Of a stretch of 64,000 bases of DNA, positions 34,228-59,603 are shown piece by piece (position 1 is the first letter of the stretch; each line of letters opens with the position of its first letter). Below the pieces are notes generated by a model, which ran no database searches, was not told where the DNA came from, and was given only the letters and a program-made list of their open reading frames with translations. The translations under genes and the position numbers were made by a program. The stretch comes from Methanosphaera sp. BMS (lineage in GTDB: Archaea; Methanobacteriota; Methanobacteria; Methanobacteriales; Methanobacteriaceae): assembly GCF_003268005.1 (NCBI RefSeq), contig NZ_CP014213.1, forward strand, positions 1,798,001 through 1,862,000, given 5' to 3'.

Positions 34228-35118
34228 CTATATTAATTCATATTTTTTGAGAACTTTCTGTAATATTTCATCGTTTTTATCACTGATAGGATTAATTGGC
34301 ATTCTTAATCCGCCAACATCCATACCCATCAAGTTTAACGCTCTTTTTGTAGGTGCAGGACTAGCTTCTATGAATAGGACATCCATCAGTTCAAACAGAT
34401 AATTTGACAGTTCACGTGATTTTTCATATTCTCCTTCCAATGCAAAATTAACCATCTGGGACATTTTATCAGGAAGAACATTAGCCGCTACACTTATTAC
34501 CCCTCGAGCTCCCTGAGCTATCATAGGTAATGTTAATGAATCATTACCTGACAATACTATAAAATCATTTAAATCATTATTATTTAATTGATTGAATAAT
34601 GATGCTAATTTATTCAAATCAGGATTTGCCTCTTTGATTGCTACTATATTATCCAACTTAGCTACATCAACGATTGTATCTACTGCCAAATCCACACCTG
34701 TTCTTGAAGGAACATTATATGCGACTATTGGTATGTTATGGGAATCATTCAATAACTTGAAATGATCATATAATCCGCTTTGTTGAGGTTTATTGTAGTA
34801 TGGAGTGATAACCAATGCTGCATCTGCTCCGGCATCCTCTGCATATTTTACAAGGTTTTGTGCTTCAACAGTTGCATTGCTTCCGGCTCCTGCTATTGTT
34901 GTTACACGACCGTTAACTTGGTCAATCATTATGTCAATGACCTTTTGTTGTTCTTCATGTGTTATTGTAGCTGATTCTCCAGTTGTACCTGCTGCTACTA
35001 CTCCATCAACATTATTTTCAATTAAGAAATCAATTAAATTTCGATATTTTTCTTCATCAATATTTCCATCTTTATCAAATGGTGTAATCATTGCAACATG
35101 TGTTCCATTTAAATTCAT
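34228..35118 (-). CDS. dapA: 4-hydroxy-tetrahydrodipicolinate synthase
   Basis: Condenses pyruvate and aspartate semialdehyde, the first committed step to lysine. It is a TIM-barrel Schiff-base aldolase of 296 residues: '[15 protein letters not shown]' substrate loop, '[15 protein letters not shown]' with the catalytic Tyr, '[10 protein letters not shown]' and '[11 protein letters not shown]' with the Schiff-base Lys. ATG at 35118 overlaps the lysC stop by four bases (ATGA), indicating translational coupling. Confidence 0.97.
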
Positions 35119-36341
35119 TGTAACGTCTCCTTAATTAATTCATATGCTTTTTCACCATCATCCCATTCAACAAATACTACAACAGCAGTTTGGCTTGATG
35201 AGACTTCAACTATATTTATATCATTATCATGTAATGGATTGGTAATATTAGCAATTATACCAGGTGTGTCTATAAATTCGTGGCTAACAACTGAAATCAT
35301 TGCTATTTCTTGACCTAAAGATAAAGAACTTAATTCATCCCCTTGAATTACCAAGTCATGTAACACTTCATGGGCTTTATCAGCATCTTCTTTTTTAAAG
35401 AATAATGTTATTGAACTTTCACCTGTTGAAATGCCATATAAACTTATATCATTATCGGATACCTTTGAGGTGATATCCGCAATGATTCCCTTCTTTGACA
35501 TTAAGTTTTCGCCAACCACTGCAATAACAGATAGTTTATCAGGCAACATGGATATTGTTACCACATTATCATCAGGATTTGCCGGTCCAATAATATCAGT
35601 TCCTTTTACGCGTAAATCACCATATTCAAAACTTATTATCTTAGCCTTTATATCAGGATCTTTATATCTTAGTGCATTAGGATGCAATACCTGTGCTCCA
35701 TAATTAGCCAAGTCAATCATTTCTTCAACGGTAATCTTATCCAATTTACGAGCTGTATTCAATTTTCTAGGGTCTGTTGACATTACCCCTTTAACGTCGG
35801 TAACTATTATTACTTCATCAGCATTTAAACAATGCCCTATTAAAAATGCTGAAACATCACTACCCCCTCTTCCAAGTGTGGTTACACAGTTATGTGAATC
35901 TCTTCCCAAGAATCCGCATATTACCGGTATAACACCTTGATCAAGAAGTGGCATGATATGTTCCTGTACTCGTTTTTTGGTTTCATCCTTATCGATTTTA
36001 GCTTCCAAATAATTACTGTCAGTAATTACTGGCCATTTTTCACTAAATGGATCGATATACTCTGATTTTACTCCGAGTGATTCTATTGTTGCAGACAGTA
36101 TTCTTACACTTTGCATTTCACCCATTGATAAAATACCGGCCAATTGTTTTTCAGTAACACTATCGCCAATAGACTCTTTAACTAGTTTTATTGATTCATC
36201 GGTAGTTTTGTTGATTGCTGATACAACCACTACAACTTTATTTCCTTTCATGTATTCATTAACAACAGAGTTTGCTGCTTTATGAATTCTTTCGCCCATA
36301 CCTACTGAGGTACCTCCGAATTTAGCCACGACTATTCCCAT
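35115..36341 (-). CDS. lysC: Aspartate kinase
   Basis: Phosphorylates aspartate, the entry step of the aspartate family. It has 408 residues with the start '[11 protein letters not shown]', 'GFLGRD', '[14 protein letters not shown]' and '[13 protein letters not shown]'. The last about 140 residues hold two ACT domains ('[17 protein letters not shown]', then '[14 protein letters not shown]'), so feedback control by an end product such as lysine or threonine is expected. ATG at 36341 follows GGTGAAG. It is the first gene of the operon with dapA, dapB and asd. Confidence 0.96.
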
Positions 36342-36679: not shown

Positions 36680-37190
36680 TATACTATCATATCACACTGA
36701 ATTTCATCAGTTAGTATTATGGTTTCTTATTTTCCATAAGTTTTCTTAAACTTTAATAGACTTTTTGTTTAGTTATCCGGTCTATGTTTGATGGGACATT
36801 ATCTATTATTAATATCCAGGATTCTTTAACATATGCTCTTGTCAAAAGAATTAATTAACGTTCTCCCTGATTGAGATGGTTATTTTCATCAGATATTATT
36901 GTATCATGCTGTTCTGGTAGTTTCATTATGAATTCATGACTTCCCCCTTCTTTTGCTGCTTTAACTATATCTTCATGACTAATATTATCTGTTAAATAAA
37001 CAATGTTGTCTTCGACACTTGCATTATACAATTGATTATTCTCGGAATGATGGTACATGAATCCATGATATTCTTTTGGGGCATCATGTTTATATTCTTT
37101 CCATCCACCAGTATTTCTCCGGAATCAATTTCATGGAACTTTGTTAATAGATTTATTAATGTTGATTTTCCGCTTGCTCTTTAGCTTTAA
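36680..37190 (-). pseudogene. Decayed ABC-transporter ATPase domain
   Basis: Translated pieces on the minus strand join into an ABC exporter nucleotide-binding domain when frameshifts are allowed. In order they are: Walker A remnant 'SGKSTLINLLTKFHEIDSGEILVDGKNIN' (about 37085-37175); then after a frame change 'YNASVEDNIVY..HEDIVKAAKEGGSHEFIMKLPEQHDTIISDENNHLNQGER' (36855-37058, where Q-loop and signature region lie); then after another shift 'LILLTRAYVKESWILIIDN' (Walker B region, its Asp-Glu damaged) and 'SLRKLMENKKTIILTDE'. In-frame stops separate the last pieces. The membrane domain is missing. This is a dead remnant of a multidrug-type exporter next to the NRPS locus. Confidence 0.8.
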
Positions 37191-37328
37191 CTAATAATTT
37201 TGCTTTTGTCATATTTTAAAGTTTAAATTTATTTGCAAATGATAATGTCCAAATTGAAAAAATAGAAAGTTATGGAGAATTTAAAAACTTTTTAACATCT
37301 AGCGTTAATGGAGTTAAAGGAGATAAAA

Positions 37329-37745
37329 TCAATGTAATTTTTTCAGTCCTCGGATTAATTTTTTATGAGTAATCAGTAAATGTAATACCAAAAAGATTAG
37401 ACTGATTATTGAAGAGGACTTATGGATATCTGACATTTTATTATTTCCAATTTTTATGTTTTTTAATGATTTTTGGCTGATAAAAATTCCTGTAAGGATA
37501 GTTATTAATAGTGAAATCAGTAATCCTATGTTTATAATGAGATTTATTGTTCTTTTGAGGGTATATTTTCCCTTGGTTATTGCTTTAAAATACTTTTCAT
37601 TTAGTTTTAAATGTGCTAATATCAAAAATAATAATCCTATACCCACCAGTTCATGTATTAAAATTGGAAGACTAATAAATTCCAACATAATTGCAACAAT
37701 CATTAATAGGTCTACACTTATTCTTTTTTTAATCTTATTTTCCAT
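37329..37745 (-). CDS. DUF4405-like four-helix membrane protein
   Basis: A membrane protein of 138 residues with four predicted helices. Histidines sit at helix borders: 'LIHELVGIGLL', 'LAHLKLNEKYF', 'DIHKSSSIISL' and 'LHLLITHKKL'. This spacing resembles the cytochrome b561-like DUF4405 family, where such His residues could bind heme and which occurs next to flavinylated redox proteins. No redox partner gene is nearby in the window. ATG at 37745 has no clear ribosome site. The family call is from pattern only. Confidence 0.6.
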   Translation of the reverse strand: MENKIKKRISVDLLMIVAIMLEFISLPILIHELVGIGLLFLILAHLKLNEKYFKAITKGKYTLKRTINLIINIGLLISLLITILTGIFISQKSLKNIKIGNNKMSDIHKSSSIISLIFLVLHLLITHKKLIRGLKKLH

Positions 37746-38047: not shown

Positions 38048-39736
38048 TTACCATTTAACTTTATCAAATACGTATTCAATATTGTTGAAATCCAATACTT
38101 CACTGACTTTAACGTTCTTTGATGAAAATGTTTTTTCAATATCGGCCATTACTTCCCTTTTTCCTTCATCTTTCATGTTAACGACTATCCTGTCATCATA
38201 ATCAATGAGCAATACCTCTATTGATATATTATCATCGTTTGATTCAAAAATGAAGTTAATTATCTTTTTTAAAGTTTCACAATATGCCTCATCAACGTTC
38301 AAACTTTTCAGATGATTGAACATTTCATTTTTCACATCGTCATTTTTATCCTGGATAGTATAATTTCTAGATTTTTCAATCAATCCCTTTTTAACGAAAA
38401 AGAGTCCCGAATATTCTTTCTCTTTTCTTTCAACAAATTTTACATAAATTGCAACAGCCACAATTGATAAAGTAAATCCCAATAGGAAGGATATCCAAAC
38501 ACTGGTAATACCTATAAATGGATATAATGCGAATGTAAATATTAACGGTCCTCCCAACTCTGAAATGAATGTAATAATTCCTGATTCAACAGTCCTTTCA
38601 ATTCCTTCATAATAAAATATCAATGTGGTTGAAATTGCCATAGGAATAAATGCTAATGAATATAATCTAAGAGCATTTTCCACCATCGTATCGTTAGGCA
38701 TATGGGCAAGGTTAAAAAACATCAACATTCCATCAGGATAGATTAATAGGAATGCGGTGAATGCTATTGAACATATTAACGACAATACAAGCGATTTTCT
38801 TACAATATACTGTATATTATAAAAATCATTTTGCGAGTAAAATATAGGTACAATAGACGATAATGTTTCCGAAAATCCTACCAGAAAGATACTTATGACC
38901 AGTAATGCATTCATACATACATTAAATATATCCAAACCAAATTCACCCAAAGATGCACTGAGGATTAAATTAAGCACATAAATCAATATTATATTGAAAA
39001 CACCCATACTTGCACTTGGAAGGCCTATTTTGATTATTTCCATTGCTGAAGTAATCCCTGTTTTGAGTTTAACTTTGGACCAGACAAATTTGAAAGTCCT
39101 TTTTGAATCGAAGATATATTTAAAAGCACAGATGAATCCAATTACATATCCTATAAGCATTGCAAGTGATGCCCCTTCAATTCCCGTGTGAAAAACGGCC
39201 AGGAATAAATAATCCAAGACTATATTGATGATGTTTACAAGAACAATTAATGCTGATGCAAAGTTTGGCTGTCCATCCACACGAATGAATTGGGTTAACA
39301 CTCCCAATAGGGTCACTATTGGGAAACATATAAATAAATATGTTCCATATGCTTTTACATACCCAATTGAACCAGGTGTCGGATGTAATATGGCAATCAA
39401 TGTATCTTCAAATAAAAAACATGCCAAAAATATCAAAATCGACAAAATTATTGTTGAAAGCATTGCTACTGTGAAGTAAAAATTGCTTCCATCCTCATCA
39501 AATTCTGCCTTCTTATTTAATGACAATATTTGGCCGCCTAAACCAAATAACCACTCAAATATTGTAACCAAGAATATCAATGGTGATAAAGTCTGCAGTG
39601 CAGCCTGCCCATTATATCCAATGAATGTTGCAATAAAACTTGAATCGACAATTGAAGTAATGTTTAAAGCCATTGCTATTAGTAATGATGGCAACAGCAA
39701 TTGTTTAAATTTATGATATATTATTTTATTTGACAT
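38048..39736 (-). CDS. MATE-family exporter with fused C-terminal ATPase-like regulatory domain
   Basis: A 562-residue protein. Residues about 1-430 are a 12-helix MATE/NorM-type antiporter ('FKQLLLPSLLIAMALNITSIVDSSFIATFIG', 'VDGQPNFASALIVLVNIINIVLDYLF', 'EGIERTVESGIIT'). About 445-562 form a soluble cytoplasmic domain ('VDEAYCETLKKIINFIFES', 'IEVLLIDYDDRIVVNMKDEG', 'VSEVLDFNNIEYVF') that resembles a degenerate GHKL/RsbW-type anti-sigma ATPase fold. This extra domain is absent from ordinary MATE proteins. ATG at 39736 follows GAGGTG and lies 9 bases after the NRPS stop, so it is very likely cotranscribed and probably exports the NRPS product. Confidence 0.88.
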   Translation of the reverse strand: MSNKIIYHKFKQLLLPSLLIAMALNITSIVDSSFIATFIGYNGQAALQTLSPLIFLVTIFEWLFGLGGQILSLNKKAEFDEDGSNFYFTVAMLSTIILSILIFLACFLFEDTLIAILHPTPGSIGYVKAYGTYLFICFPIVTLLGVLTQFIRVDGQPNFASALIVLVNIINIVLDYLFLAVFHTGIEGASLAMLIGYVIGFICAFKYIFDSKRTFKFVWSKVKLKTGITSAMEIIKIGLPSASMGVFNIILIYVLNLILSASLGEFGLDIFNVCMNALLVISIFLVGFSETLSSIVPIFYSQNDFYNIQYIVRKSLVLSLICSIAFTAFLLIYPDGMLMFFNLAHMPNDTMVENALRLYSLAFIPMAISTTLIFYYEGIERTVESGIITFISELGGPLIFTFALYPFIGITSVWISFLLGFTLSIVAVAIYVKFVERKEKEYSGLFFVKKGLIEKSRNYTIQDKNDDVKNEMFNHLKSLNVDEAYCETLKKIINFIFESNDDNISIEVLLIDYDDRIVVNMKDEGKREVMADIEKTFSSKNVKVSEVLDFNNIEYVFDKVKW

Positions 39737-39745
39737 GTTACACCT

Positions 39746-42700
39746 CTATTCAAAGTAATTTAATTTATTTAAGTAATCTATTAATCGTTTAAGATAGTTT
39801 TCATCTGGTACAGGCCAGTCAAATCCTAAGGAATGAAGAATTTCAGTGGTCTGATCCAATTTAATATTTTCCTCGAAGTCATCTTCTTCATCAAGCTCAT
39901 CGACTGTAATATCTGCAGTGATTATGCCCCGAATATTTTCGTTCATGTTTTGTTCATAAATTTCCTTAAATTCAGACCCGTCAACCTCCTCAATTCCATT
40001 GCCGTATGTATTCAACACGTCAACTATGTTCCTAATAGGAATGTAGCGGTTATTCATACAATGGAATACTCTGCATTTTTCCGGAGTCTTAGACAGTTCA
40101 AGAATTCCTTTTGCAACACAATCTATCTGGCTCATATCTGTCTGTGAATCGGCCATGACATTATTGATGGCTTTCAGTTTATTAATGGCTTTTAGGTTGT
40201 TCAGGAATGCATTGGTATCATAGTTTTTCTGGAATACTCCATCTGAATAACGACCCATCAGGTTTCCAAGCCTCATAATTTTCACTGAAAGACCCTTGGT
40301 TGCAGCCTCCAGCACCATTCTTTCAGCCAAAAATTTACTGCATATGTATTTATTTTCCATGGACTGTTCATAGTATAATGTCCGTTCATCATATCCAGGA
40401 TTTGGATATTCATCCTCATTTAAGGAGTATGATGAAAGAACACTTATTGTGGATGTCTGTATGTATCTGATATTATTTCTTGTCTGGGCAAATTTGAGTC
40501 CATTAATTACCCCGTCGACATTAACCTTAAATATATAATCATCAGCAGTGTAATGTTTTACAATAGCTGCCGAATTAATTATTGTATCAATCGGTTCCCC
40601 TTCAAGTTTTTTAAAGTCATCAACTTCTGTAATGTCTCCTTCACTTAGAATAATGCGTGAACCAATCAGTCCTGTCAGGTCTTCATCGAAGTAATACTCC
40701 ATTAAATCGATTAAACGTTCTTCACAGGAATCAAATTCACCTTTTCTCAACATACAATAGATTTTTCCATCTTCATTCTTGAGGAATTCATATAGTATAT
40801 GTATTCCTAAAAATCCGGTAACTCCCGTCAAGAGAACGTTACCCAGTTCAAGTTTTTCACCCTCCATGAAGCTTTCTATAGTATTTTCTTCGAGAAGCTC
40901 ATTGATTTGGTCATAGTTGTAGTTTTTGACAATGTCCTCTTCAACGTTCAACTCGACTTCAGAATCTGCTTCACCAGATAATACTTTTGCCAGTGCTCTA
41001 GGAGTCTTTTTCATGAAAATATCATCATATCTTACAGTATATCCCTGTTTAAGCAATTCAATAATTAATTTTGAAGCAATAAGAGATGTTCCCCCGATTT
41101 CAAAGAAATTATCTTCTGCACCAACGCTTTCCACATTCAATATGCTTGAATATATTGCACAGATTTCCTGTTCTAGTTTTGTTTTTGGAGCCACATAATT
41201 CATTTCCAGCCTTGGCTCAGGAAGTTTTTTAGTATCTGTTTTACCGTTAGGAGTTTGTGGCATTTCATCCATCTGTATAAATACTGTTGGAATCATATAA
41301 TTGGTAAGATGGTCTTTTAAGAACTCTTTTAAATCACCAGAGTCAATTGCCTCATCGGCAACATAGTATGCACATAAATGGTCAACGTTGTTAATCTTTC
41401 TAATTACTACAGCCGCCTGTTTTATATTCGGATATTTACCTATGTTAGTTTCGATTTCTCCAATTTCAATTCTTAATCCCCTTAACTTGATTTGATTGTC
41501 AATTCTTCCCTTAATGTCAATTTCACCATTTGGAAGCTTAATGGCATAGTCACCACTTCTATAATATGGAATGCCATTGATAGTCAGGAAGACCTCTTCA
41601 GTTTTTTCAGGCATATTATAATATCCTTTTCCTACACCAGTTCCCCCAATATACAGTTCGCCCATGATACCTTCAGGCAATAATTTGCCGTCAATATCGC
41701 GAACTTCAGTAACATAGTTAGCTAAAGGAGGCCCTACAGTCAGGTCATTTACATCGGTTACTTCCTTGTTATTTGAAGTGATTGTTGTTTCGGTTGGACC
41801 ATAACTGTTATAGACAATTGCATCGCTGTATTTTCTTAAATTCTCATAAACTTTTGCTGAAAACTGTTCTCCTCCAAGGAAAATACATTTCAAGCAGGAT
41901 ATTACGTCACAGAACTCATCCAGCTCAGTATAGGATGCAAGTCTTGAAGGAGTAATCTCCAATACTTCAGGCTTATTCTCATCAATCAACTTGATAAGCT
42001 CCGGAACATTTCTTATTTGAACATCATCAGCCAGTACTAACTTCAATCCATTTGAAAGTGATGTTAGAATATCATCGACAGACACGTCAAAAGAGATTGT
42101 TGTAATACAAAGCAAGCTTTCGTAAGTTGATTTAGGGTTTTGAGCCTGATTACAAATGTTTTTATGTGATATCATCACTCCCTTAGGTTTGCCTGTAGAT
42201 CCTGAAGTGTAAATCATATATGCAAGGTCATCAGGAAGAACATTGACATTAGGATTAGTAACGTTTTGTTCTTCAAGAAGTTCTTCAACGTTAAGCAAAT
42301 TACTTGAAGTTTCATTGCTTATTATGTAATCTGCCTGACTGTTTTCATATATGTAATTGATTCTTTCCTGAGGATATTCCGGATCAATAGGAATATATGC
42401 ACATCCTGCCTTTAGAACTCCCAGTATGGAAGCTATCAAATTACTGTTTCTGTTAAGCATTATAAGAACATTACTTTTTGGCTTAACGCCCCGACGGATT
42501 AATGCGTTTGCTATCCTGTTACTTTTCTCGTTAAGTTGCTGGTAAGTTAGTGTAGCGTCACAGGCAACCAATGCCACATTATTGGCTTTTTTAATGGCCT
42601 GTTTTTCAAAGCGTTTGTGTAGAATTGGAGTGTCAAGTTCTTCAAATACAGGAGTTTCACCTTCTTCCAATTCAATATCCTTAATTCTTAATTTATCCAT

Positions 42701-45700
42701 ATCATTTACAAAGAACTGGAATAAAATGTATTTGACGGAATAGAGGAACTTTTTAATATAATCTTCAGTATAAAGCTGGTCGTTATATTCAATATATAAA
42801 TTGATTATTTCTCCATCATCATAAATGTCAATGTTTATCTTATAATCTGTTGAAACTGTACCGTCAAGGTCAATAGTTTTATATTTGGTACCGTCAAGAT
42901 CCATCTCATTAACTAATGCTTCATGATATGAATAGAAGAATTCCGGTTTTAACTGATAGTCCTGTGAAAGTTTTGTATAAGGATAATTACTGTGAGTCAA
43001 TGCATCTTTCCATGATTTGTCGACTATTTTTATGTAATCTTCAACCATCATCTCACGATTTTCAGCATTTACAATAATAGGCAATGTTTTTACCAGCATT
43101 CCCTGTGTATTGGAATAACTGGAGTTTGCCCTACCGTTAAAGATTGTTGTAATTAATGATTTGTCACTGAATGTGAATTTATTAAGGCCTATGAGTATAG
43201 CCGTCATGAATAAAACGTTTGGACTTATTGAATGATCCTGACAGAAGCTTCTGACAAAACTTGAAGTCAATTCGTCGGAAACAAGTTTTATATTTCCAAT
43301 ATCCGGATTACCATTTATATTTGGAGTTAAAACAGTTGATTCGATTCCTTTGGAGAATTGATTTTTAAAGAATTTTTCGGAAACTTCATTAATGGCTGTT
43401 TTTTCTTCAATTAGGCTGTATGCGTATCCGTCAATTCTTTCAGGTTCTATTTCCTGACCTTCATAGGCTTTGACCACATCTTTAAAGAAATTGTCCAGTG
43501 ATACACCATCGGTAATAATATGGTGGAAATCACTGAATAACACGGTTTGTGATGGTGTCTTGTAGATTTTAAATCTGAATAACTGATTATCATCCAAAGG
43601 AATAGGTTTTATGTCTCTTTTCATTAGTTCCTTGTTGCTGATGGAAGCTATTTCTTCTATTTCTATGTCTTCAATTTCTACATCATCACATCTTTTTTGC
43701 AATATTTCTCCATCATCCCTATTGATAATTCTTGTTTTAAGATATGGATGTGCCTCAATTGTTTTAATAAGCGATTTTTTGAGCTTATAAGAATCAACAG
43801 TGTTGTCAAATCGTATTCCCATAGGCATTGTATATTTGATTTTTTCTGTTTGCATACATTCATAGTAAATTCCCAATTGATTTGGAGTCAATGGGAAATA
43901 TTCCATATCTTTTGCAGTTTCAATGATTTCATCAATATCTATATCTGTTTCAATATGATTGTCAATCTTATCTGCAAGGGATTTGATTGTCGGATTTGTG
44001 AATAATGAAGTAATGTCTATATTTACATTGGTTTCATTGAAAATCATAGAGTTTAGTTTCATCAGTGATAATGAAGTGAATCCAAGTTCATATAAATTGT
44101 CAGTTATTCCGAATCTGCTTGTATCTGCAATGGATGATACAAATTCCACCAATTTTTTCTCGGTTTCATTTTCAGCTTCAACATAATCAAAGTTTAATTT
44201 AGGTTTTGGAAGTCTTTTGACCTCTGTTTTACCATTTGGAGATATTGGCATTTCATCCAATTGCATAAAGACTGTTGGAACCATATATTCTGTCAGTTTA
44301 TTACCCAAATACCTTTTCAGAAGATTCATGTCTATCTCTTCATCAGCCGTGAAGTAAGCACATAAATGTTCAACATCATTGATTTTCTTAATTACAACAA
44401 CAGTCTGTCTGATATGTGGGAATCTGGCTATGCTTGATTCGATTTCTTCAATTTCGATTCTCAATCCTCTTAACTTGATTTGATTGTCAATTCTTCCCTT
44501 AATTACAAGATTACCATTTGGAAGTTCAATTGCATAATCCCCACTTCTATAATAGGGAATGTCATTGATACTTAGGAAGACCTCCTTGGTTTTTTCTTCC
44601 AGATTGTAATATCCTCTGGATACACCATTTCCTCCAATATACAGTTCCCCCATAACTCCGGTAGGCAGTAATTTTCCATCAATATCCCTTACTTCAGTTA
44701 TGCAGTTGTGCAATGCTTTTCCAATAGTAACCTCTTCCCCTTTAAGCATTTTATGAGCATTACTTAAAACGGTTGTTTCGGTCGGACCATAACCGTTATA
44801 TATCTCCAATTCAGGATATTTATGGAGTTTGGAAATCAGATCCTGTGGCACCATTTCCCCACCAATTGCAATATACCTGAGATTAGGAATTTGTTCGGCA
44901 AATTCTTCATGTTCCATATATTGCTTGAATCTTGATGGTACGGTGAACGTAAGGGATTCCGGTTTTTCACGTTTAATTAATTCCGTTAATTCCTCAATGT
45001 TTTTAATTTCAGTGTCATTGGCTAATACCATTTCCAAACCGTAGGTCAATGTCATGAAATCAAGTAAAAATGCATCAAATGATACTGTTGAAATTGCAAG
45101 TGTCCTCGTCATATTTGAGTATGCCTGATAAATTATGCTGTCTTCACTTTGAGAAAATAGGTTAGTAATGTTTTTATGGCTGGTCATTACTCCCTTAGGA
45201 TTTCCGGTGGAACCTGAAGTATAAATCATATATGCCACATCATCAGGACTGATTTCAACACATGGATTATCAATATTTTCCTCTTCAAGCAACTTTTTAA
45301 CGTCAATTGAATTTTCATTGGCTTCATCTGCAATAATATAGTCTGCATTACTGTTTTCAAAAATATATTCAATCCTACCTTTAGGATAATTTATATCCAT
45401 AGGTATGAATGCACAACCCGCTTTCAGTACACCCAGTATTGTCGCAATAAGATTACTGGTTCTTGAAAGCATTACCAGAACATTGCTGTTAGGTTTAATT
45501 CCCCTATTTATAAGGGCATTGGCTATACGATTAGCCTTTTTATTGAGTTGGCCATATGTTAATCTGGCATCGGATGCAATCAAAGCAATATGATCCGGAT
45601 TTTCATCCACCTGCTTTTCAAAGCGTTTGTGGATAAATGGAATTTTCACTTCAGTGAATTCATGCATTTCATCATCATCTTTAAGTCTTACATCACAGAT

Positions 45701-48700
45701 TCTGTATGTGTCAACATCATTTTCAGTTATTTGAGCTAAAATATCTTTCAATGATTTTATGAATGTTTTGATGTAATCTTCACTATATAATTCATCATTA
45801 TATGCCAATTCAATTCCGAACTCATCTCCATTATCATAAATGGATAACATGATTTTGGAATCAACTGCAACCTGTTCGGCACCGGCCAATTCCTCTGGAA
45901 TGTAAGATTTGTTGTTTATTTTCAACTCATCGGATTCTAAAAATTCATGATAAGCATAGAAAAATTCCGGCTTTAACTGATATTTCTCAGCTATTTTAGT
46001 GAATGGATAAACACTGTTTTTTAAGGTGTCCTTCCATCTTTGATCAACGGATTTGATGAAATTTCTGATTGAAGATTGTCTATCTTCATTATTGATTACA
46101 AATGGAATGGTTTTAACAAGGAACCCCTGGGTATTGAAATAATTCGGTGAAGTCCTACCGTTGAATATGGTTGTCATAAGTGTCTTATCGGAGAATGTGA
46201 ACTTATTTAACCCCAATATTGTACTTGAAATAAATAAAGTATTCTTACTCAGTGAATTATCATTACAGAACTCATTAATTAACTGTGAATCCATACTTTC
46301 AGTATAATATTTTATTTCACCGTCTTCAGGATTTCCATTGAGATTTGGTGTTAAAACAGTAGATTCAAATCCTTGAGTTAACTTATCGTCAAAGAATTCT
46401 TTTGCGGACTGATATCTTTGGCTACCTTCCATGTCTTTTTCAAGAATGCTGTAAGTGTAACCGTCTATTATCTCATCTTCAAGGTCCCTGTTTTCATAGA
46501 CATTTGCAATATCCCTGAAAAGATTATTCTGTGAAACTCCATCGGTAATTATATGGTGGAAGTTGGAGAAGAGCACAACTTCATCAGGTGTTTCATATAT
46601 CTTAAATTTAAATAATTGACCGTCCTCTAATGAAATTGGTGCAACATCGTTTTTAATTATCTCTTCATCGCTTATGGATTCAACCTTAACTATTTCAATA
46701 TCGTCAATTTCCGCATCATCACATCGTTTCTGCATCAATTCTCCACCATAAGTTACAATCCTTGTTTTAAGATATGGGTGAGATTCGATTGTTTGGACAA
46801 CCGCATCCTTAAGCTTAGATGCATCTACATCCGCTTCGAATCTTACGGTTGTAGGCATTACATATTTGACTACGTCAGGATTTTGCACACATTCATAATA
46901 AACACCCAACTGATTTTCTGTTAAAGGATAATATTCCCTGTCTTTTGCAGATTCAATAAGTTCGTCAAGACCGAATCCTTTTTTAGTCGAATTGTCCATT
47001 TCAATTGCAAAGTTTCTGATTGTTGGTTCATTAAATAATATGGAGATGTCCAATGTACATCCAAGCTCTTCATAGATTATTGAATTTAATTTCATTAATG
47101 TCAGTGAAGTAAATCCGAGAGCATACAAATCATCTGTTACACCAAATTCTTCAATATTTGTTAGAGATGAAACAATTTCATACAATTTCTCTTCGGTATC
47201 TGTATCAGGCATTACCAATTCCAATTTGAGATGAGGTTCAGGCAACTGCTTTAAGTCCGTTTTACCGTTTGGAGTGTGAGGCATCTTATCTAACTGCATG
47301 AATACAGTTGGAACCATATACCTTGTAAGGCGATCTTTTAAAAACTCTTTCAAGTCATCACTGTCAATTGTCTCATCGGCAACATAATATGCACATAAAT
47401 AGTCATTGTTGTTGATTTCTTTGATAACAACAACCGCCTGTTTTACGGATGGATATCTGCTGATGTTGGATTCTATTTCACCAATTTCTATACGTAGTCC
47501 CCTGAGTTTTATCTGGTTATCTATTCTTCCTTTGATGTCTATTTCACCATTTGGTTTTTTAATAGCATAGTCTCCACTTCTGTAATATGGAATACCATTT
47601 ATTGTCAGGAATACTTCTCTTGTCTTCTCAGGCATATTGTAGTAACCCTTACCTACACCCACTCCACCGATGTATAACTCACCCATTACTCCTTGAGGAA
47701 CTAATTTACCGTCAATATCACGTACATCAGTAACATAATTGTATAACGGATATCCTACAGTAATGTCGTTGACATCCGTTACCTTTTTGTTGTTGGATGT
47801 GATTGTTGTTTCTGTTGGTCCGTAACTGTTGTATACTATTGCATCGGAGTATTCTCTGAAGTTTTCATAAACTTTTGTTGAAAACTGTTCCCCTCCAAGA
47901 AATAAACATTTAAGACATTTAATTGCCTTGCAGAATTCTGATACCTCAAGGTGTGATGCCAGTCTGGATGGAGTGAAATCAGCTATTTCCGGTTGATGTT
48001 CCTTAATCAATTCCGTTAGTTCAGGAATATTTTTAATTTGGGTATCATCAGCAAATATCAGTTTCATTCCATTTGTAAGTGATGTGAAAATATCATCCAT
48101 AGCTACATCAAATGAAATTGTTGTAATACATAAGAGGCTTTCATATTGTGATTTTGGATTTTGTACTTCGTTACATAAGTTTTCGTGTGAAATCATTACA
48201 CCCTTAGGATTTCCGGTGGAACCTGAAGTGTAAATCATGTAAGCCAAATCATCCGGACTAATTTCAACATCAGGATTTGAGGAATCTATTTCTTTGAGCA
48301 ATTCTTTGACATTCAATGAATTATCCTTGTCTTCATCTGAAATGATATAATCTGCTTGACTGTTATCATAGATGTAGTCAATTCTCTCCTGAGGATATTC
48401 AAGATCTATAGGAATATATGTACATCCCGCTTTAAGAATACCCAATATTGACGCGATTAGGTCACTGTTTCTATGAAGCATTACCAGGACATTACTTTTA
48501 GCTTTGATTCCTTTTCTGATTAATGCGTTTGCAATTTTATTTGCTTTTTTGTTTAGTTCATCTGCAGTAAATATTGCATCGCCGGCAACAAGAGCAATTT
48601 TTTCCGGATTTGCTTCCACCTGTTTTTCAAAACGTTTGTGGATAAATGGATTTTCCACAGGGGTAAATTCCGGCAATTCATTTTCATTTTCTAGTTTTAT

Positions 48701-51700
48701 ATCCTTTATCATTATTTCGTTTATGTCACTTTCAATGAATTGATTTATGACTAGATTAAGTGAATCCAGGAATTTTTGTATATACTCTTCACTATACAAT
48801 TGGTCATTATAATCCAGTATGTATCTAATATTGTCTTCATAAATGAAAATATCAAAGTTAATTTTATATGCCGTTGTAGATAGATTATCAGAACTTAAAT
48901 CATACTCTTCATAAACCTTGTCGTTAATTGTTATTTCTTCTGATTTATAGAATTCCTGATATGAGAAGAAAAATTCAGGTTTTAACTGATAAGATTCTGC
49001 AATATGAGTATATGGATATTCACTATGATTTATTGTATTTTTCCATACTTCATCAATGCCATTAATAAAATCTTTAATTGTTATTTTCCTGTTTTCGTTA
49101 TTGAATACTAATGGAAGTGTTTTTACCAGGAATCCTTGAGTATTATAGTAATATGGATTGGATCTTCCATTGAATATGGTTGTTATCAATGTCTTGTCGC
49201 TGAATGTATATTTATTCAATGTCAATGTGAGAGCGGACATAAACAATGCATTTTGACTCAATGAATAATCATTACAGAACTCCCTGATTTTATCCGGACT
49301 GATTTCCTGAACGATAGTTTTCAAACTACCTTCATCAGGGTTACCGTTGAGATTTGGTGTAAGAACTGTTGATTCAATTTCCTGTGAAAGTACTTCATCA
49401 AAGAACTGCTTGGATTTTTCATATCTTTCACCATCTTTAGCATCTTCTTCAATAAGGCTATAGGTATATCCGTCTACAATTTCCTCTGACAACTCTTTAT
49501 CTTCATAGGCGTTTGCTATGTCTGTTAGGATGTTGATTTGTGATACCCCATCAGAAATGATATGATGGATATCACTGAATAATACTGTTTCATCCGGTGT
49601 TTTGTAGATTTTAAATCTGAACAACTGTTGGCTTCCGAAGGTATATGCTTTCACATCATTTCTTATTATCTCGTCATCACTTATTGAATCAACTTCAACT
49701 ATTTCAATTTCATCTATATCGGCATCATCATTTCTTTTTTGTTTTAATGAACCGTCATCTGCAGTTATGATTCTGGTTTTAATGTATGGATGTGCTTCCA
49801 CTGTTTTTATAATTGATTGTCTTAATTTTTCCGCATCCACATCACTGTCAAATCTTAAAACTACAGGCAGGGTATATCTTATTTCATCCGGACTTTGCAT
49901 ACACTCATAGTATACACCTAACTGGTTTTCGGTTAATGGGAAATAGTTGAGGTTATCTGCCAATTTATTAAATTCTTCCAAATCGGATTTTTCATCACCA
50001 TATTCTATTTGTGATGCAATTTTTCTGATTGTTGGATTATTGAATAATAGTGAAATATCCAGGTTAGCTCCTGTTTTTGCATAGATTAATGAGTTGAATT
50101 TCATTAATATCAGTGATGTAAATCCTATTGCGTATAAATCATCGGTTACACCGAATTTTTCAGTGTTTACGAGTTCTGCTGCTATTTCAAAGAGTTTTTC
50201 CTCTGTTTCATTTTCGGATTTGATGTTTTCCAGGTCAAGTTTGGGTTGAGGCAATGCCTTCAGGTCTGTTTTACCGTTTGGTGTTTGTGGCATCACGTCA
50301 AGCTGCATATACGCAGTTGGAATCATATACTTGGTTAACTTGTCTTTCAGGAAGTCTTTCAAACTATCTTTATCAATTTCATCATCTGCAGTATAGTATG
50401 TACAGAGATGGTCGTTGTTGTTGATTTCTTTGATAACAACAACCGCCTGTTTTACGGATGGATATCTGCTGATGTTGGATTCTATTTCACCAATTTCTAT
50501 ACGTAGTCCCCTGAGTTTTATCTGGTTGTCAATTCTTCCCAAGATTTCTATATCCCCGTCCGGTCTTGAGATTGCATAGTCTCCACTACGATAATATGGA
50601 ACATCATTTATAGTTAAGAATACTTCTTCAGTTTTATCAGGCATGTTGTAGTAACCCTTACCTACACCTACTCCACCGATGTATAACTCACCCATTACTC
50701 CGTAAGGCAAGATTTTACCGTCAATATCACGTACATCAGTAACATAATTGTATAACGGATATCCTACAGTAATGTCGTTGACATCCGTTACCATTTTGTT
50801 GTTGGATGTGATTGTTGTTTCTGTTGGTCCGTAACTGTTGTATACTATTGCATCGGAGTATTCTCTGAAGTTTTCATAAACTTTTGTTGAAAACTGTTCC
50901 CCTCCAAGATATAAACATTTAAGACATTTAATTGCCTTGCAGAATTCCGGTAGTTCAAGGTGTGATGCCAGTCTGGATGGGGTGAAATCGGCCATTTCCG
51001 GTTGATGTTTCTTAATCAGTTCCGTTAGTTCAGGAATATTTTTGATTTGACTGTCGTCGGCAAATATCAGTTTCATTCCATTTGTAAGTGACGTGAATAT
51101 ATCATCCATAGCTACATCAAATGAAATTGTTGTAATACATAAGAGGCTTTCATATTGTGATTTTGGATTTTGTACTTCGTTACATAAGTTTTCGTGTGAA
51201 ATCATTACACCCTTAGGATTTCCGGTAGAACCAGATGTGTAAATCATGTAAACCAAATCGTCAGCGTCAACATCAACATCCGGATTTTCTTTGTTGTTTC
51301 CTTCAAGCAAGTCGTTAATGTTTAACGTGTTTTCTTTAGATTCTTCACAGATAATATATTCCGCCTGACTGTTTTCATAAATATAGTTTATCCTTTCTGT
51401 TGGATAATCAGGATCAATCGGAATGAATGCACAGCCTGCTTTCAGAATTCCTAAAATAGCTGCAATCAAATTGCTGTTTCTTGAAAGCATTACCAAAACA
51501 TTGCTTTTAGGTTTGATTCCTTTTTCTATTAATGAATTTGCAATGATGTTTGCCTTTTCATTTAATTGACTGTAAGACAAATTGGCATCACATGCAACAA
51601 GGGCTGTTTCATCCCCATTTTCAATTACATGTCTTTCAAAACGCTTATGGATATATGGAAGCTCCACTTCACTGAAAGTGAATTCCTTTTCATTTATAAG

Positions 51701-52324
51701 AGCAATATCACAGATGTTTGATGCGTCAATATCTGCATTAATCGTCAAATCTATGATTTTTTCAAGGCTTGATAGGAATAAATCAATATACTCCTTTGTA
51801 TATAATTCATCATTATAAAATAAGGATAGTGAAAGTGTTTCATCATTTTCAACAATGCTTAAATAATTGGAATATTCAACAGTTGACTGCAAATCTTCAT
51901 CAAAAGCATAGTAGAATTCAGGTTTTAAAGGAAAATCCCCACTATCATAATATTCATCAAATTCCAAGGTAATCTTATAATTCTCATGAATTTGTTCTAA
52001 AAATGTCCTGAGGGATAGGTTTCTTTTTTCAAATTTGGTGGCGAATGGAACATTATTCTGATTGAATATTAATGTTTCATCTGAAAAATTAAATTTGTTG
52101 AGTGTTAAAGTTAAACCTGCCAATAAAAGAGCATTGATAGAAATTGAATTGGATTTAGCGAATTCTGTTAGTTTTTCTTTTTTAATTTCGTATTTTGCTT
52201 TCTGAGTTATGCCTTTTTCTTTTTCACCATTTAGATTTTGGGAAATTAATGTTGATTCATCAAAATTAAGCCATAACGTTGAGCAATATTCATTGAAAGA
52301 AGTATTTGTATTATCGTCCATCAT
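39746..52324 (-). CDS. Four-module nonribosomal peptide synthetase with reductase release domain
   Basis: A protein of 4192 residues in four C-A-PCP modules. Module 1 starts with only the C-terminal half of a condensation domain (about 1-220), then A (A3 'YTSGSTGNPKG' near 362) and PCP (Ser737). Modules 2, 3 and 4 have complete C domains with HHxxxDG at 920, 1923 and 2934, A3 motifs near 1365, 2368 and 3372, and PCP serines 1740, 2751 and 3747. PCPs 1-3 read 'GFTSL', the last the classical 'GGTSL'. From about 3825 to the end lies a thioester-reductase domain ('LLTGVTGFLGIHIL', 'YICSKFLAER' with YxxxK), which releases aldehyde or alcohol. No epimerase or methylase domain is seen. Two adjacent ATG codons are at 52324 and 52321, after AAGGTT. 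A MATE gene follows after 9 bases. Confidence 0.96.
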   Translation of the reverse strand: MMDDNTNTSFNEYCSTLWLNFDESTLISQNLNGEKEKGITQKAKYEIKKEKLTEFAKSNSISINALLLAGLTLTLNKFNFSDETLIFNQNNVPFATKFEKRNLSLRTFLEQIHENYKITLEFDEYYDSGDFPLKPEFYYAFDEDLQSTVEYSNYLSIVENDETLSLSLFYNDELYTKEYIDLFLSSLEKIIDLTINADIDASNICDIALINEKEFTFSEVELPYIHKRFERHVIENGDETALVACDANLSYSQLNEKANIIANSLIEKGIKPKSNVLVMLSRNSNLIAAILGILKAGCAFIPIDPDYPTERINYIYENSQAEYIICEESKENTLNINDLLEGNNKENPDVDVDADDLVYMIYTSGSTGNPKGVMISHENLCNEVQNPKSQYESLLCITTISFDVAMDDIFTSLTNGMKLIFADDSQIKNIPELTELIKKHQPEMADFTPSRLASHLELPEFCKAIKCLKCLYLGGEQFSTKVYENFREYSDAIVYNSYGPTETTITSNNKMVTDVNDITVGYPLYNYVTDVRDIDGKILPYGVMGELYIGGVGVGKGYYNMPDKTEEVFLTINDVPYYRSGDYAISRPDGDIEILGRIDNQIKLRGLRIEIGEIESNISRYPSVKQAVVVIKEINNNDHLCTYYTADDEIDKDSLKDFLKDKLTKYMIPTAYMQLDVMPQTPNGKTDLKALPQPKLDLENIKSENETEEKLFEIAAELVNTEKFGVTDDLYAIGFTSLILMKFNSLIYAKTGANLDISLLFNNPTIRKIASQIEYGDEKSDLEEFNKLADNLNYFPLTENQLGVYYECMQSPDEIRYTLPVVLRFDSDVDAEKLRQSIIKTVEAHPYIKTRIITADDGSLKQKRNDDADIDEIEIVEVDSISDDEIIRNDVKAYTFGSQQLFRFKIYKTPDETVLFSDIHHIISDGVSQINILTDIANAYEDKELSEEIVDGYTYSLIEEDAKDGERYEKSKQFFDEVLSQEIESTVLTPNLNGNPDEGSLKTIVQEISPDKIREFCNDYSLSQNALFMSALTLTLNKYTFSDKTLITTIFNGRSNPYYYNTQGFLVKTLPLVFNNENRKITIKDFINGIDEVWKNTINHSEYPYTHIAESYQLKPEFFFSYQEFYKSEEITINDKVYEEYDLSSDNLSTTAYKINFDIFIYEDNIRYILDYNDQLYSEEYIQKFLDSLNLVINQFIESDINEIMIKDIKLENENELPEFTPVENPFIHKRFEKQVEANPEKIALVAGDAIFTADELNKKANKIANALIRKGIKAKSNVLVMLHRNSDLIASILGILKAGCTYIPIDLEYPQERIDYIYDNSQADYIISDEDKDNSLNVKELLKEIDSSNPDVEISPDDLAYMIYTSGSTGNPKGVMISHENLCNEVQNPKSQYESLLCITTISFDVAMDDIFTSLTNGMKLIFADDTQIKNIPELTELIKEHQPEIADFTPSRLASHLEVSEFCKAIKCLKCLFLGGEQFSTKVYENFREYSDAIVYNSYGPTETTITSNNKKVTDVNDITVGYPLYNYVTDVRDIDGKLVPQGVMGELYIGGVGVGKGYYNMPEKTREVFLTINGIPYYRSGDYAIKKPNGEIDIKGRIDNQIKLRGLRIEIGEIESNISRYPSVKQAVVVIKEINNNDYLCAYYVADETIDSDDLKEFLKDRLTRYMVPTVFMQLDKMPHTPNGKTDLKQLPEPHLKLELVMPDTDTEEKLYEIVSSLTNIEEFGVTDDLYALGFTSLTLMKLNSIIYEELGCTLDISILFNEPTIRNFAIEMDNSTKKGFGLDELIESAKDREYYPLTENQLGVYYECVQNPDVVKYVMPTTVRFEADVDASKLKDAVVQTIESHPYLKTRIVTYGGELMQKRCDDAEIDDIEIVKVESISDEEIIKNDVAPISLEDGQLFKFKIYETPDEVVLFSNFHHIITDGVSQNNLFRDIANVYENRDLEDEIIDGYTYSILEKDMEGSQRYQSAKEFFDDKLTQGFESTVLTPNLNGNPEDGEIKYYTESMDSQLINEFCNDNSLSKNTLFISSTILGLNKFTFSDKTLMTTIFNGRTSPNYFNTQGFLVKTIPFVINNEDRQSSIRNFIKSVDQRWKDTLKNSVYPFTKIAEKYQLKPEFFYAYHEFLESDELKINNKSYIPEELAGAEQVAVDSKIMLSIYDNGDEFGIELAYNDELYSEDYIKTFIKSLKDILAQITENDVDTYRICDVRLKDDDEMHEFTEVKIPFIHKRFEKQVDENPDHIALIASDARLTYGQLNKKANRIANALINRGIKPNSNVLVMLSRTSNLIATILGVLKAGCAFIPMDINYPKGRIEYIFENSNADYIIADEANENSIDVKKLLEEENIDNPCVEISPDDVAYMIYTSGSTGNPKGVMTSHKNITNLFSQSEDSIIYQAYSNMTRTLAISTVSFDAFLLDFMTLTYGLEMVLANDTEIKNIEELTELIKREKPESLTFTVPSRFKQYMEHEEFAEQIPNLRYIAIGGEMVPQDLISKLHKYPELEIYNGYGPTETTVLSNAHKMLKGEEVTIGKALHNCITEVRDIDGKLLPTGVMGELYIGGNGVSRGYYNLEEKTKEVFLSINDIPYYRSGDYAIELPNGNLVIKGRIDNQIKLRGLRIEIEEIESSIARFPHIRQTVVVIKKINDVEHLCAYFTADEEIDMNLLKRYLGNKLTEYMVPTVFMQLDEMPISPNGKTEVKRLPKPKLNFDYVEAENETEKKLVEFVSSIADTSRFGITDNLYELGFTSLSLMKLNSMIFNETNVNIDITSLFTNPTIKSLADKIDNHIETDIDIDEIIETAKDMEYFPLTPNQLGIYYECMQTEKIKYTMPMGIRFDNTVDSYKLKKSLIKTIEAHPYLKTRIINRDDGEILQKRCDDVEIEDIEIEEIASISNKELMKRDIKPIPLDDNQLFRFKIYKTPSQTVLFSDFHHIITDGVSLDNFFKDVVKAYEGQEIEPERIDGYAYSLIEEKTAINEVSEKFFKNQFSKGIESTVLTPNINGNPDIGNIKLVSDELTSSFVRSFCQDHSISPNVLFMTAILIGLNKFTFSDKSLITTIFNGRANSSYSNTQGMLVKTLPIIVNAENREMMVEDYIKIVDKSWKDALTHSNYPYTKLSQDYQLKPEFFYSYHEALVNEMDLDGTKYKTIDLDGTVSTDYKINIDIYDDGEIINLYIEYNDQLYTEDYIKKFLYSVKYILFQFFVNDMDKLRIKDIELEEGETPVFEELDTPILHKRFEKQAIKKANNVALVACDATLTYQQLNEKSNRIANALIRRGVKPKSNVLIMLNRNSNLIASILGVLKAGCAYIPIDPEYPQERINYIYENSQADYIISNETSSNLLNVEELLEEQNVTNPNVNVLPDDLAYMIYTSGSTGKPKGVMISHKNICNQAQNPKSTYESLLCITTISFDVSVDDILTSLSNGLKLVLADDVQIRNVPELIKLIDENKPEVLEITPSRLASYTELDEFCDVISCLKCIFLGGEQFSAKVYENLRKYSDAIVYNSYGPTETTITSNNKEVTDVNDLTVGPPLANYVTEVRDIDGKLLPEGIMGELYIGGTGVGKGYYNMPEKTEEVFLTINGIPYYRSGDYAIKLPNGEIDIKGRIDNQIKLRGLRIEIGEIETNIGKYPNIKQAAVVIRKINNVDHLCAYYVADEAIDSGDLKEFLKDHLTNYMIPTVFIQMDEMPQTPNGKTDTKKLPEPRLEMNYVAPKTKLEQEICAIYSSILNVESVGAEDNFFEIGGTSLIASKLIIELLKQGYTVRYDDIFMKKTPRALAKVLSGEADSEVELNVEEDIVKNYNYDQINELLEENTIESFMEGEKLELGNVLLTGVTGFLGIHILYEFLKNEDGKIYCMLRKGEFDSCEERLIDLMEYYFDEDLTGLIGSRIILSEGDITEVDDFKKLEGEPIDTIINSAAIVKHYTADDYIFKVNVDGVINGLKFAQTRNNIRYIQTSTISVLSSYSLNEDEYPNPGYDERTLYYEQSMENKYICSKFLAERMVLEAATKGLSVKIMRLGNLMGRYSDGVFQKNYDTNAFLNNLKAINKLKAINNVMADSQTDMSQIDCVAKGILELSKTPEKCRVFHCMNNRYIPIRNIVDVLNTYGNGIEEVDGSEFKEIYEQNMNENIRGIITADITVDELDEEDDFEENIKLDQTTEILHSLGFDWPVPDENYLKRLIDYLNKLNYFE
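47705..47938 (-). repeat. Near-identical tract in A domain 2 (partner 50714-50947)
   Basis: This 234-base stretch in module 2 matches 50714-50947 in module 1 with two differences by my reading, including synonymous sites. Two further tracts match with the same 3009-base offset: 47402-47518 with 50411-50527 (one difference) and about 48060-48216 with 51069-51225 (two differences). The segments between are clearly diverged. This mosaic pattern suggests gene conversion between modules. Confidence 0.85.
50714..50947 (-). repeat. Near-identical tract in A domain 1 (partner 47705-47938)
   Basis: The module 1 copy of the tract described for 47705-47938. It spans the A5 region ('NSYGPTETTIT') and the loop just before it. 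One of the two base differences changes Tyr to Phe in the 'CL(Y/F)LGGE' segment, a pocket-lining position. Confidence 0.85.
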
Positions 52325-52733: not shown

Positions 52734-52916
52734 CTATTGATCTAATAAATGAGTTGCATAACCTGCAATTTGATTTCTTAAGTGTTTTGTTGAAACAGAT
52801 GAGTATTCAGCAACAACTTGTTTGTTGTTTTCAAAGTCGTTGTTAAATTTATCTCCGTGTAATTCAATTAATTCTTTTGCTGTTCTTTTTACAAATGTTG
52901 TTCTTATATTTCCCAT
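52734..52916 (-). CDS. rps17e: Ribosomal protein S17e
   Basis: A small-subunit ribosomal protein of 60 residues found in archaea and eukaryotes: '[32 protein letters not shown]' and '[16 protein letters not shown]' are typical. ATG at 52916 follows a strong GGAGGAT; a TTG two codons upstream is not the start. It follows aroK and aroQ on the same strand, a gene order I recall from other Methanobacteriales. Confidence 0.96.
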
Positions 52917-54905: not shown

Positions 54906-57900
54906 TTAATTTTTCATTTTATAATAGTATCCAATACCTATACAAGCAAGGACGAAAAGAAGAATTAAAAGATGTTCCTTCAAATCATTCATGAATGTAC
55001 TGATCTCGGATAATTCATATGCTTTATTAACTGTTTCTTCAGCAGAGTCACTAACGACACTATCCACAACAGCATGATTGACAACATCTGCAAATGAAGA
55101 CACCATAAAAGATGAAACAGTATCACCAGTTAACACACTAGCGTCAGCACGAGTTTGAGAATCATCATTTGACTGACTATCTTCAACATTCTGACCATCA
55201 TCAGAATTCGAGTTGACACCGGCAGAATCGCCATTATCTGTGGAATTGCCCGTGTTATTTTCAACTATGGCAACATTCTCCGTATCATCATTATTATCAA
55301 CTGTGTCATTGACTGCAACATCATCACTATTATTTTCAACAACAGTATTGTTTTTATCATCCGTAGTTTCATTTATTGCTTGATTAACATCAGTTTGATT
55401 AACATCAGTTGAATTAGAATCAATATTTTGAGTATCATTGATGACTGTTTTGTTATCATTAACAGCATCATTCACGTCAGTATCATTAACGGATGATGTG
55501 GTGTTGTTAATATGGGTGTTGTTCTGATTTATTGAGGAATTTGTAATGTTTGTTGTTATGTTTGAATCTTCTATAGTGACATTGTCAACATTTACTGTAA
55601 TGTTAGTTGCATTGGTTGTTATGTTGGAGTTTGTTATATTACCGTTGGTAGTGTTTTCTATTGTACCGTTACTATTACTGGTCACGTTAGAACCTTCAAC
55701 ACTAGAACCATCAGTACCATTAACAACAACATCACTACCATTACCAGTCACATTAGAACCCTCAACACTAGAACCATCAGTACCGTCAACAACAACATCA
55801 CTACCATTACCAGTTATATTACTATTGTTAATATTGGTATTATTGGAATTAATATCTGTGTCGGTTACATTTCCAGTACTGTTTATATTGTCCTGTGTAG
55901 AGTTTGTAATGTTACTTGTTGTATTTGTAACGTTGCCTTCTGTATTTGTATTGTTTATTGTTGAATTTGTTTCAGTGGCATTTGTATTTGAAATATCTGA
56001 TGAGATGTTACTGTTTTCTATCGTGTCATTTGTAGCGTTGATATTTACGTTAGTTTCAGGATTGGTTGTGTTTGTTGAAGGAGTATCCCCCCCGGACTGA
56101 TTACCGCCGGCAGGAGTATCATTCCCCGTACCATTACTGCTATGATTGTTATCTTCAGGATTATCTTGATTTTCAAAGACTACTTCAAAGTTTGTTTGTA
56201 CATCTGTTGATGGATTATATTTATTATCTCCATTGAATGTAGCCGTGACACTTTTTATTCCTTCACTATCCGTTTTGTAATCATATTGATATGATCCATC
56301 TTCCCTGGTGGATATGTCATGAGTCATGCCATCTATTTCCAAGTTGATATGAGCCGACATTACCGGATTTGATAGTTCATCTGTTAATGTTCCTGATATC
56401 GTTGTTTGAGCAGTTGTCTGAGAGTAGCTAACCGGCGTATGAACTACGGTAAGTGTTGTGTTGTATTTGCTTACATTGAACGTGCCTTCTATTGTGGAGT
56501 CATTATAGAATTCATCATCATGTAAGTCTATCAATACATCATGTAAGCCCGCTATGATTGGTTCATACATGTAAGTGTAATATCCATTTTCATCTGTTTT
56601 GGTAGAGAATATCTCCCCATTAACCAATAGGTCTAGTTGAAGGTTAGAAATTGCCTTATTGTTTTCATCAGTTGCCATACCGGTTATTTCTTCGCTTTCA
56701 TTGATTTTTATTGGTTTTGTTGTTAGTGTTATGTTTGTTTGATGTTTAAAGACGTGGAAGTTAGCTGTTGAATTTGAAGTATTGTATTGCGTCGTTGAAT
56801 CATATGTGGCTGTGATGTTATTTAATCCTGGACTTGTTGATTGATAATATATCACCGCACATCCTTCGCCGTTGGTCTTTGTAGTATCTGTTTGATTGTT
56901 GATTATAACCGTTACAAATTGATTAGACAGCTTGTTTGAATTTTCATCAAGCAACGTTATTGTTATTGTAGCGTTTTGACCTACGGTAACATTTGTTGAA
57001 TTGATGTCTATTTCAGTATTTAATGCACGTACAGTGAATGTTAGATTCTTACTGCCCTCATAGTAGTAATAACTTTCAGGAAGTGTAACTGTAACATTGT
57101 TAGTTCCTACACTTTCCACTTTGTATGTAAGCAGATATTCTGCATTTTCATCACTTGCTACTTCAAATCTTTGATTATCCAATTCTATAATAAATGGATA
57201 GTTGTTTAATTTATTTCCTTTTTCATCTTCAAGACTTACTTTTATTGTGACGTTTGAGAATACTGCTACATCATCATCCAATACACTTGCATTTATAACT
57301 ACGGGCATTTTTTCAACTGTTATTGTAGTTGAATTTGCCGAATAAGTGTAGTTTTCATTATCCTTTGTATAAGCGGTTATATTATATCTTCCTGCAGGTA
57401 TTTGTGTAAATATCAAGTGATATGAATTTTCATCACGCATTACGTCATATGCGAATAATTCATCATCCACATCTTCACTTGTTATGTTAAATAGGATGAT
57501 ATCTGAAGCGTAATCATAATTATCGGCAGATAACTGTGCTATCATTTCCACCGAATCAACTATCTTGAAGTCTCTTATACCGGATAATGTTTTATCATCA
57601 AGTAATATGCTTGTTTTGATTTTTTCTGTTATGAATGTTGAATTAACAATATTTGACTGCAGATATTTGTCACTTGGACTGGTATATACACTCACGTGGT
57701 GTTGACCAACAGTTGATTCATAAGTATAACTGTAATTTGTCTGATTGGAAACTGTTAATGAATGATTTTTGGCATCAATGATAAGGTTGACTTCAAGAGT
57801 ATCATTACCTGATATGTTCAATAATTTTCCTCCAATTACAGTGGGACTGCCCAGTGTAACTGATTTGATTTCATCGAGTGTAATTACCGGAGTTCTTTTG

Positions 57901-59276: not shown

Positions 59277-59603
59277 TCAACCCTCAACCATAATCAACTT
59301 ACCTGAATCAGGGTCACGATAAACACTGCCCACCTTACTATATCCAGAACCTGTTTGTTCGGCTTGCTGGATAGTGTTAGGAACTTCTTTTCCTTGAGAA
59401 ACGTTTATGGCATCCTGTAATGGCATTGAAGAATTTTGACTATCGGGGTTATAGCTGATCTGATCAATGCCGACGGATGTTATTGCAAGAATCAGAAAAC
59501 CGACGGCCAATACCAGCATGATATCAACCATGTTTACAATACTGGTCATTGGATCAGCATCTTCTCCATCAGAAAAACTTGGTTTACCACTCTTTTTTAT
59601 CAT
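59277..59603 (-). CDS. ExbD-like / DUF2149 small membrane protein
   Basis: A 108-residue protein with one N-terminal membrane helix ('VNMVDIMLVLAVGFLILAITS', about 23-44) and a soluble outside part. The Asp in 'MVDIMLVL' matches the proton-carrying Asp of ExbD/TolR helices. The family is what is called DUF2149 in methanogens. ATG at 59603 overlaps the stop of the MotA/TolQ/ExbB gene by four bases, so the two form a pair. They probably make a proton-driven membrane motor; the driven partner is unknown. Confidence 0.82.
   Translation of the reverse strand: MIKKSGKPSFSDGEDADPMTSIVNMVDIMLVLAVGFLILAITSVGIDQISYNPDSQNSSMPLQDAINVSQGKEVPNTIQQAEQTGSGYSKVGSVYRDPDSGKLIMVEG

Follow-up and report, generated by a model that had tools for sequence, protein, structure and literature searches.

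The presence of a nonribosomal peptide synthetase (NRPS) gene in the gut archaeon Methanosphaera sp. BMS raises the question of whether such an enzyme works in this host, how it came to be there, and what kind of molecule it would release. Our analysis covered the 64,000-nucleotide stretch of DNA that carries the gene (hereafter the window), the remainder of the host genome and related Methanobacteriaceae. We consider it quite probable that this is a functional four-module synthetase of the mru_0351 type known from Methanobrevibacter ruminantium, which was gained together with its MATE-family exporter gene as a pair from a Methanobrevibacter-like donor, and was then remodeled by recombination. 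The features of the locus are collected in Table 1.

Table 1. Features of the NRPS locus and its borders (positions within the window; C, condensation; A, adenylation; PCP, carrier protein; R, reductase).
Feature	Position	Strand	Remarks
NRPS gene, (half-C)-A-PCP-C-A-PCP-C-A-PCP-C-A-PCP-R	39746..52324	-	4192 aa
Half condensation domain at the N-terminus (residues 1-215; only the C-terminal lobe)	51680..52324	-	HHxxxDG absent by motif reading; kept in orthologues
Adenylation domain 1 (A1), pocket code DVDFYGSITK	50225..51652	-	core recently homogenized with A2
PCP1 (GFTSL)	50000..50212	-	Pfam and motif
Condensation domain C2 (HHIISDG)	48731..49942	-	inside foreign segment
Adenylation domain 2 (A2), code DVDFFGSITK	47225..48643	-	Pfam and pocket code
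PCP2	47006..47191	-	Pfam
Condensation domain C3 (HHIITDG)	45719..46936	-	Pfam and motif
Adenylation domain 3 (A3), code DALTAGGVLK	44210..45622	-	residue 278 T or F, depending on gap
PCP3	43970..44182	-	Pfam and motif
Condensation domain C4 (HHIITDG)	42710..43897	-	motif
Adenylation domain 4 (A4), code DVDIFGSITK	41216..42607	-	Pfam and pocket code
PCP4 (GGTSL)	40970..41194	-	belongs to the didomain whose M. ruminantium counterpart is solved
Terminal thioester reductase (R) domain	39749..40843	-	TGVTGFLG, Thr, YxxxK
Foreign-clan segment, residues ~540-1400	48125..50707	-	A1 C-terminal part, PCP1, C2, A2 N-terminal part
A1 pocket core, residues ~366-560	50650..51230	-	near-identical to A2 core, residues ~1369-1563
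MATE-family exporter	38048..39736	-	562 aa; starts 9 bp past the NRPS stop
Small membrane protein, DUF4405/cytochrome b561-like	37329..37745	-	within inserted block
rps17e, core gene	52734..52916	-	upstream border of inserted block
Aspartokinase, core gene	35115..36341	-	downstream border of inserted block

The gene is a single open frame that runs for 12.6 kb without a stop, in which Pfam recognizes four AMP-binding (E 1e-303 in total), four AMP-binding_C, three Condensation, four PP-binding and one NAD_binding_4 domain, a set far beyond chance. Reading of the motifs located HHxxxDG three times, YTSGSTG, YGPTE and the NGK of A10 four times each, the serines of all four PCPs (GFTSL in three, GGTSL in one), and, in the reductase, TGVTGFLG, the threonine (STIS) and YxxxK. 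An earlier note on this DNA had described a complete NRPS of four modules that releases its product by reduction (four A, three C with HHxxxDG, four PCP, one R), and both Pfam and the motifs confirm it. The same note had named two findings that would speak against an active enzyme, namely inactivating changes in the A, PCP or reductase sites, and the lack of a phosphopantetheinyl transferase; the signature residues are all present, and a transferase gene lies at C1:304 kb (212 aa, Pfam ACPS and AASDHPPT_N). This gene adjoins one encoding a STAS-domain protein, a neighborhood that recalls the mru_0513/0514 pair of M. ruminantium (PMC2812497). The NRPS gene is under purifying selection, with dN/dS of 0.08-0.13 for its body and reductase and of ~0.2 for the N-terminal half-C, and the protein is apparently a working enzyme, as judged from its sequence.

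This half-C had been omitted from the earlier description. Aligned to the internal C domains of the same protein, it corresponds to their C-terminal half, and thus represents half of a fourth C domain. Relatives retain it at 64–71% identity, those of M. ruminantium M1 and of the genomes G019, G057 and G103 at 65–71%, and its start position is identical in the full-length relatives; because these four share the same start, we regard it as genuine and conserved, and not as the result of a wrongly called gene start. An AlphaFold2 model (pLDDT 68), for which the best Foldseek matches listed were all C-, E- and Cy-type domains of NRPSs, is of moderate confidence and supports the fold class, nothing finer.

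The relative in M. ruminantium M1, mru_0351, likewise has four modules (4187 aa from its ATG) and is 74.4% identical globally. It has been described in strain M1 as being followed by the MatE gene mru_0352 (PMC2812497), and by their module numbers and MATE neighbors the two NRPSs that we found in M1 correspond to mru_0068 and mru_0351. The Methanosphaera and M1 enzymes share the half-C, the terminal reductase, a MATE gene directly downstream, and the X-X-Y-X order of pocket codes, those of M1 being DVDIFGSITK, DVDSFGSITK, DALSGGIVTK and DVDIFGSITK from A1 to A4 (for the Methanosphaera codes in Table 1, position 278 of A3 was corrected for a gap). They differ in residues ~540-1400, which in Methanosphaera come from another NRPS clan, so that the two are not orthologous along their whole length; in the A1 core, which is near-identical to that of A2; and in the host genus. 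A search of the PDB with the PCP-R end retrieved 6VTJ/6VTZ as the best match (E 3e-257, ~80% identical), with homology extending throughout the didomain. These are crystal structures of the PCP-R didomain of mru_0351, ascribed to Deshpande et al. 2021. The enzyme is therefore not a previously unseen one, nor the first of its kind, its type having been described in 2010 and partly crystallized by 2021; what is new is the Methanosphaera host, to which the crystallized type now extends, and a well-marked recombinant history.

Two further groups of enzymes resemble it in part. The long archaeal clan of 5–8 kaa (e.g. G062, 8210 aa; G064, 7216 aa; and a 5208-aa NRPS of the host genome itself) has a reductase that is 63–67% identical, a MATE partner that is 45–48% identical, and a donor-like PCP1-C2 stretch (best 76–80%), but has more modules and other codes, e.g. 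DTEFVGSIAK, and is a separate enzyme. AusA of Staphylococcus aureus (PDB 4F6L/4F6C) was the top reductase match in the PDB from outside the archaea and is also an NRPS with a terminal SDR-type thioester reductase, but it has two modules, and the match (4F6L) is far weaker than that to 6VTJ/6VTZ. The score against the aureusimine synthetase family (NF047350), 1999 bits, stays below the curated cut-off of 2500.

Such genes are not rare in this family, since 79 of the 139 Methanobacteriaceae species searched carry NRPS condensation domains. The rarity that the earlier note had assumed for archaea is thus not borne out for this family, and 687 NRPS clusters have been counted in 125 archaeal genomes in a survey of rumen archaea that reported them in Methanobrevibacter only (PMC8241843). 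Matches of the MATE search adjoin reductase-terminated NRPSs in 13 genomes, and each of the three NRPSs of the host genome has a MATE gene of its own (in the window, at C1:548-567 kb and at C1:2703-2721 kb). The latter two loci (L067 and L068) hold frames of 5208 and 3212 aa, respectively, both with reductase ends, and the DTEFVGSIAK pockets of the 5208-aa enzyme are repeated. NRPS genes are common in gut methanogens, yet no product of any archaeal NRPS, this enzyme included, was found in the literature searched.

The order of shikimate kinase, chorismate mutase, rps17e, aspartokinase and dapA on the minus strand is conserved, and the NRPS and MATE genes lie within the gap between rps17e and aspartokinase. 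This gap spans 16393 bp in Methanosphaera sp. BMS, 211–561 bp in five of the seven congeners checked, and 2.2 kb (G005) and 3.8 kb (G010) in the other two, both of which lack an NRPS there. Because the gap differs in this way among congeners, we interpret the NRPS block as an insertion at a variable site. Base composition carries no signal of foreign origin, the GC content of the NRPS gene (~34%) being like that of its surroundings, and an Rfam scan of the window returned tRNA-Cys only.

Several results point to transfer between genera. In a tree of the PCP-R region the Methanosphaera and Methanobrevibacter copies are intermixed, and the AU test rejected a single Methanosphaera clade (p-AU 0.00115, at a cost of 61 log units) for the twelve closest rows with three Methanosphaera copies constrained, a group that was chosen with a first tree already in view. 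Among full-length relatives, that of Methanobrevibacter G103 is the closest (83% in PCP-R); the NRPS dN to this genome, 0.093, is below the value of 0.160 for the thermosome of the same pair, whereas that to the intact copy of the congener G019, 0.160, exceeds the thermosome value of 0.060. G019 carries, at another genomic site (G019:C42, L073/L004), the closest copy, reduced to a broken relic of which the R domain (90%) and the MATE gene (86%) persist with one stop while the remainder is missing, and on the basis of this 90% identical relic, loss within Methanosphaera also occurred. We infer that the NRPS-MATE pair entered Methanosphaera from a Methanobrevibacter-like donor, and take this direction from the far greater number of Methanobrevibacter copies.

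The history of the gene after its arrival is mosaic. In 30-codon windows, the DNA of A1 and A2 is 90–99% identical over most of residues 366-560, where third positions agree at 80–100%, as compared to ~30–60% outside, and a further near-identical patch lies at residues ~599-637. The N-terminal part of A1 is nearest to A1 of G103 (84%), the core is nearest to A2 of the same protein (95%; next best 78%), and the A1 pocket of G103 is unlike (NMH...), which together favor a transfer of the core from A2 to A1 rather than the reverse. In addition, residues ~540-1400, with breakpoints taken from sliding identity, are more similar to long NRPSs of other species than to enzymes of the mru_0351 type, PCP1-C2 being 76–80% identical to the best-matching internal modules of 7.2–8.2-kaa NRPSs versus 50–58% to the latter type. 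One way in which bacterial NRPSs are known to evolve is by swapping the cores of their A domains (PMC9205934), and the present gene displays natural exchange of both modules and sub-domains in an archaeon. We give roughly even chances to the fuller account, in which the archaeon reprogrammed its own NRPS through exchange units of the bacterial type, the A2 pocket core overwriting that of A1 and a module-sized block arriving from another archaeal clan; if so, the tetrapeptides of Methanosphaera and of the Methanobrevibacter donor lineage would have different first residues. A1 in two Methanobrevibacter orthologues (L077, L078) lacks Asp235 (NMH.../NME...) and has YGQSE replacing YGPTE, pockets that suggest an unusual substrate.

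This same history could be read as that of a selfish or passenger insertion in decay, with catalytic parts that look intact and yet yield no product: recombination at modules 1–2 is recent and could have reduced activity at the A1-PCP1-C2 junction, the closest copy is a relic in G019, and most congeners do without the cluster. We consider this improbable, as every motif is intact across a stop-free 12.6 kb, dN/dS is low, and the MATE and phosphopantetheinyl transferase genes are intact as well.

A functional enzyme would be expected to operate as follows. The Sfp-type phosphopantetheinyl transferase of the genome would arm the four PCPs, and A1 would begin the chain, with no N-acylation by the NRPS itself because no full C domain precedes A1. 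C2 to C4 would then form three peptide bonds, giving X-X-Y-X, in which X denotes the near-identical pockets of A1, A2 and A4, and Y the different pocket of A3. Release by R domains as an aldehyde or alcohol is established for the domain type; here, reduction with NAD(P)H would free the chain as a C-terminal aldehyde, which might be reduced further to an alcohol, and the MATE protein would export the product. This product would thus probably be a linear tetrapeptide that ends in an aldehyde or alcohol, and in the rumen or gut it would most likely serve as a small secreted inhibitor or signal. A search of the literature on gut peptide aldehydes found nothing.

The amino acids selected by the A domains are not confidently predicted, because a literature search on the exact pocket codes found no match. 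The codes DVDxFGSITK and DTEFVGSIAK resemble what we take to be a lysine code, which serves as a lead only. DVDIFGSITK agrees with the ornithine code DVGEIGSIDK (PMC3992020) at six of ten positions, a likeness that weakly suggests that X may be basic (Orn/Lys-like), and a basic X might fit a protease inhibitor of the leupeptin type. With its matched pocket codes, the set of orthologues makes the question of the product testable domain by domain.

The aldehyde released by AusA cyclizes to aureusimine, and AusA is a family-level relative (NF047350 and 4F6L matches). A cyclic imine or a pyrazinone/pyrazine-type compound, formed when a free N-terminal or side-chain amine attacks the released aldehyde, is a possible but rather doubtful alternative for the product: the N-terminus would be unblocked, with no acylating domain, and the ornithine-like codes would allow side-chain amines, but the dimodular AusA yields a six-membered ring, whereas a tetrapeptide needs a strained or larger one, and the NF047350 score falls below the cut-off. 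The siderophore that the earlier note had suggested is very unlikely: no tool result supports it, and the open reading frames of the inserted block include no hydroxylase, dihydroxybenzoate pathway or iron-uptake gene, while the exporter belongs to the MATE family.

Other features of the window were noted on the minus strand. Within the inserted block, the intergenic stretch 36700-37220 resembles, by eye, remnants of an ABC-type ATPase gene. The stretch 54906-59078 encodes a large adhesin-like protein that is repetitive and contains bacterial Ig-like domains (Big_3_5), and at 59277-60235 a MotA/ExbB-like gene precedes one for a DUF2149 protein. Two tandem small membrane proteins are encoded at 61234-62386, of which the first matches TMEM175-type potassium channels and the second appears similar by eye.
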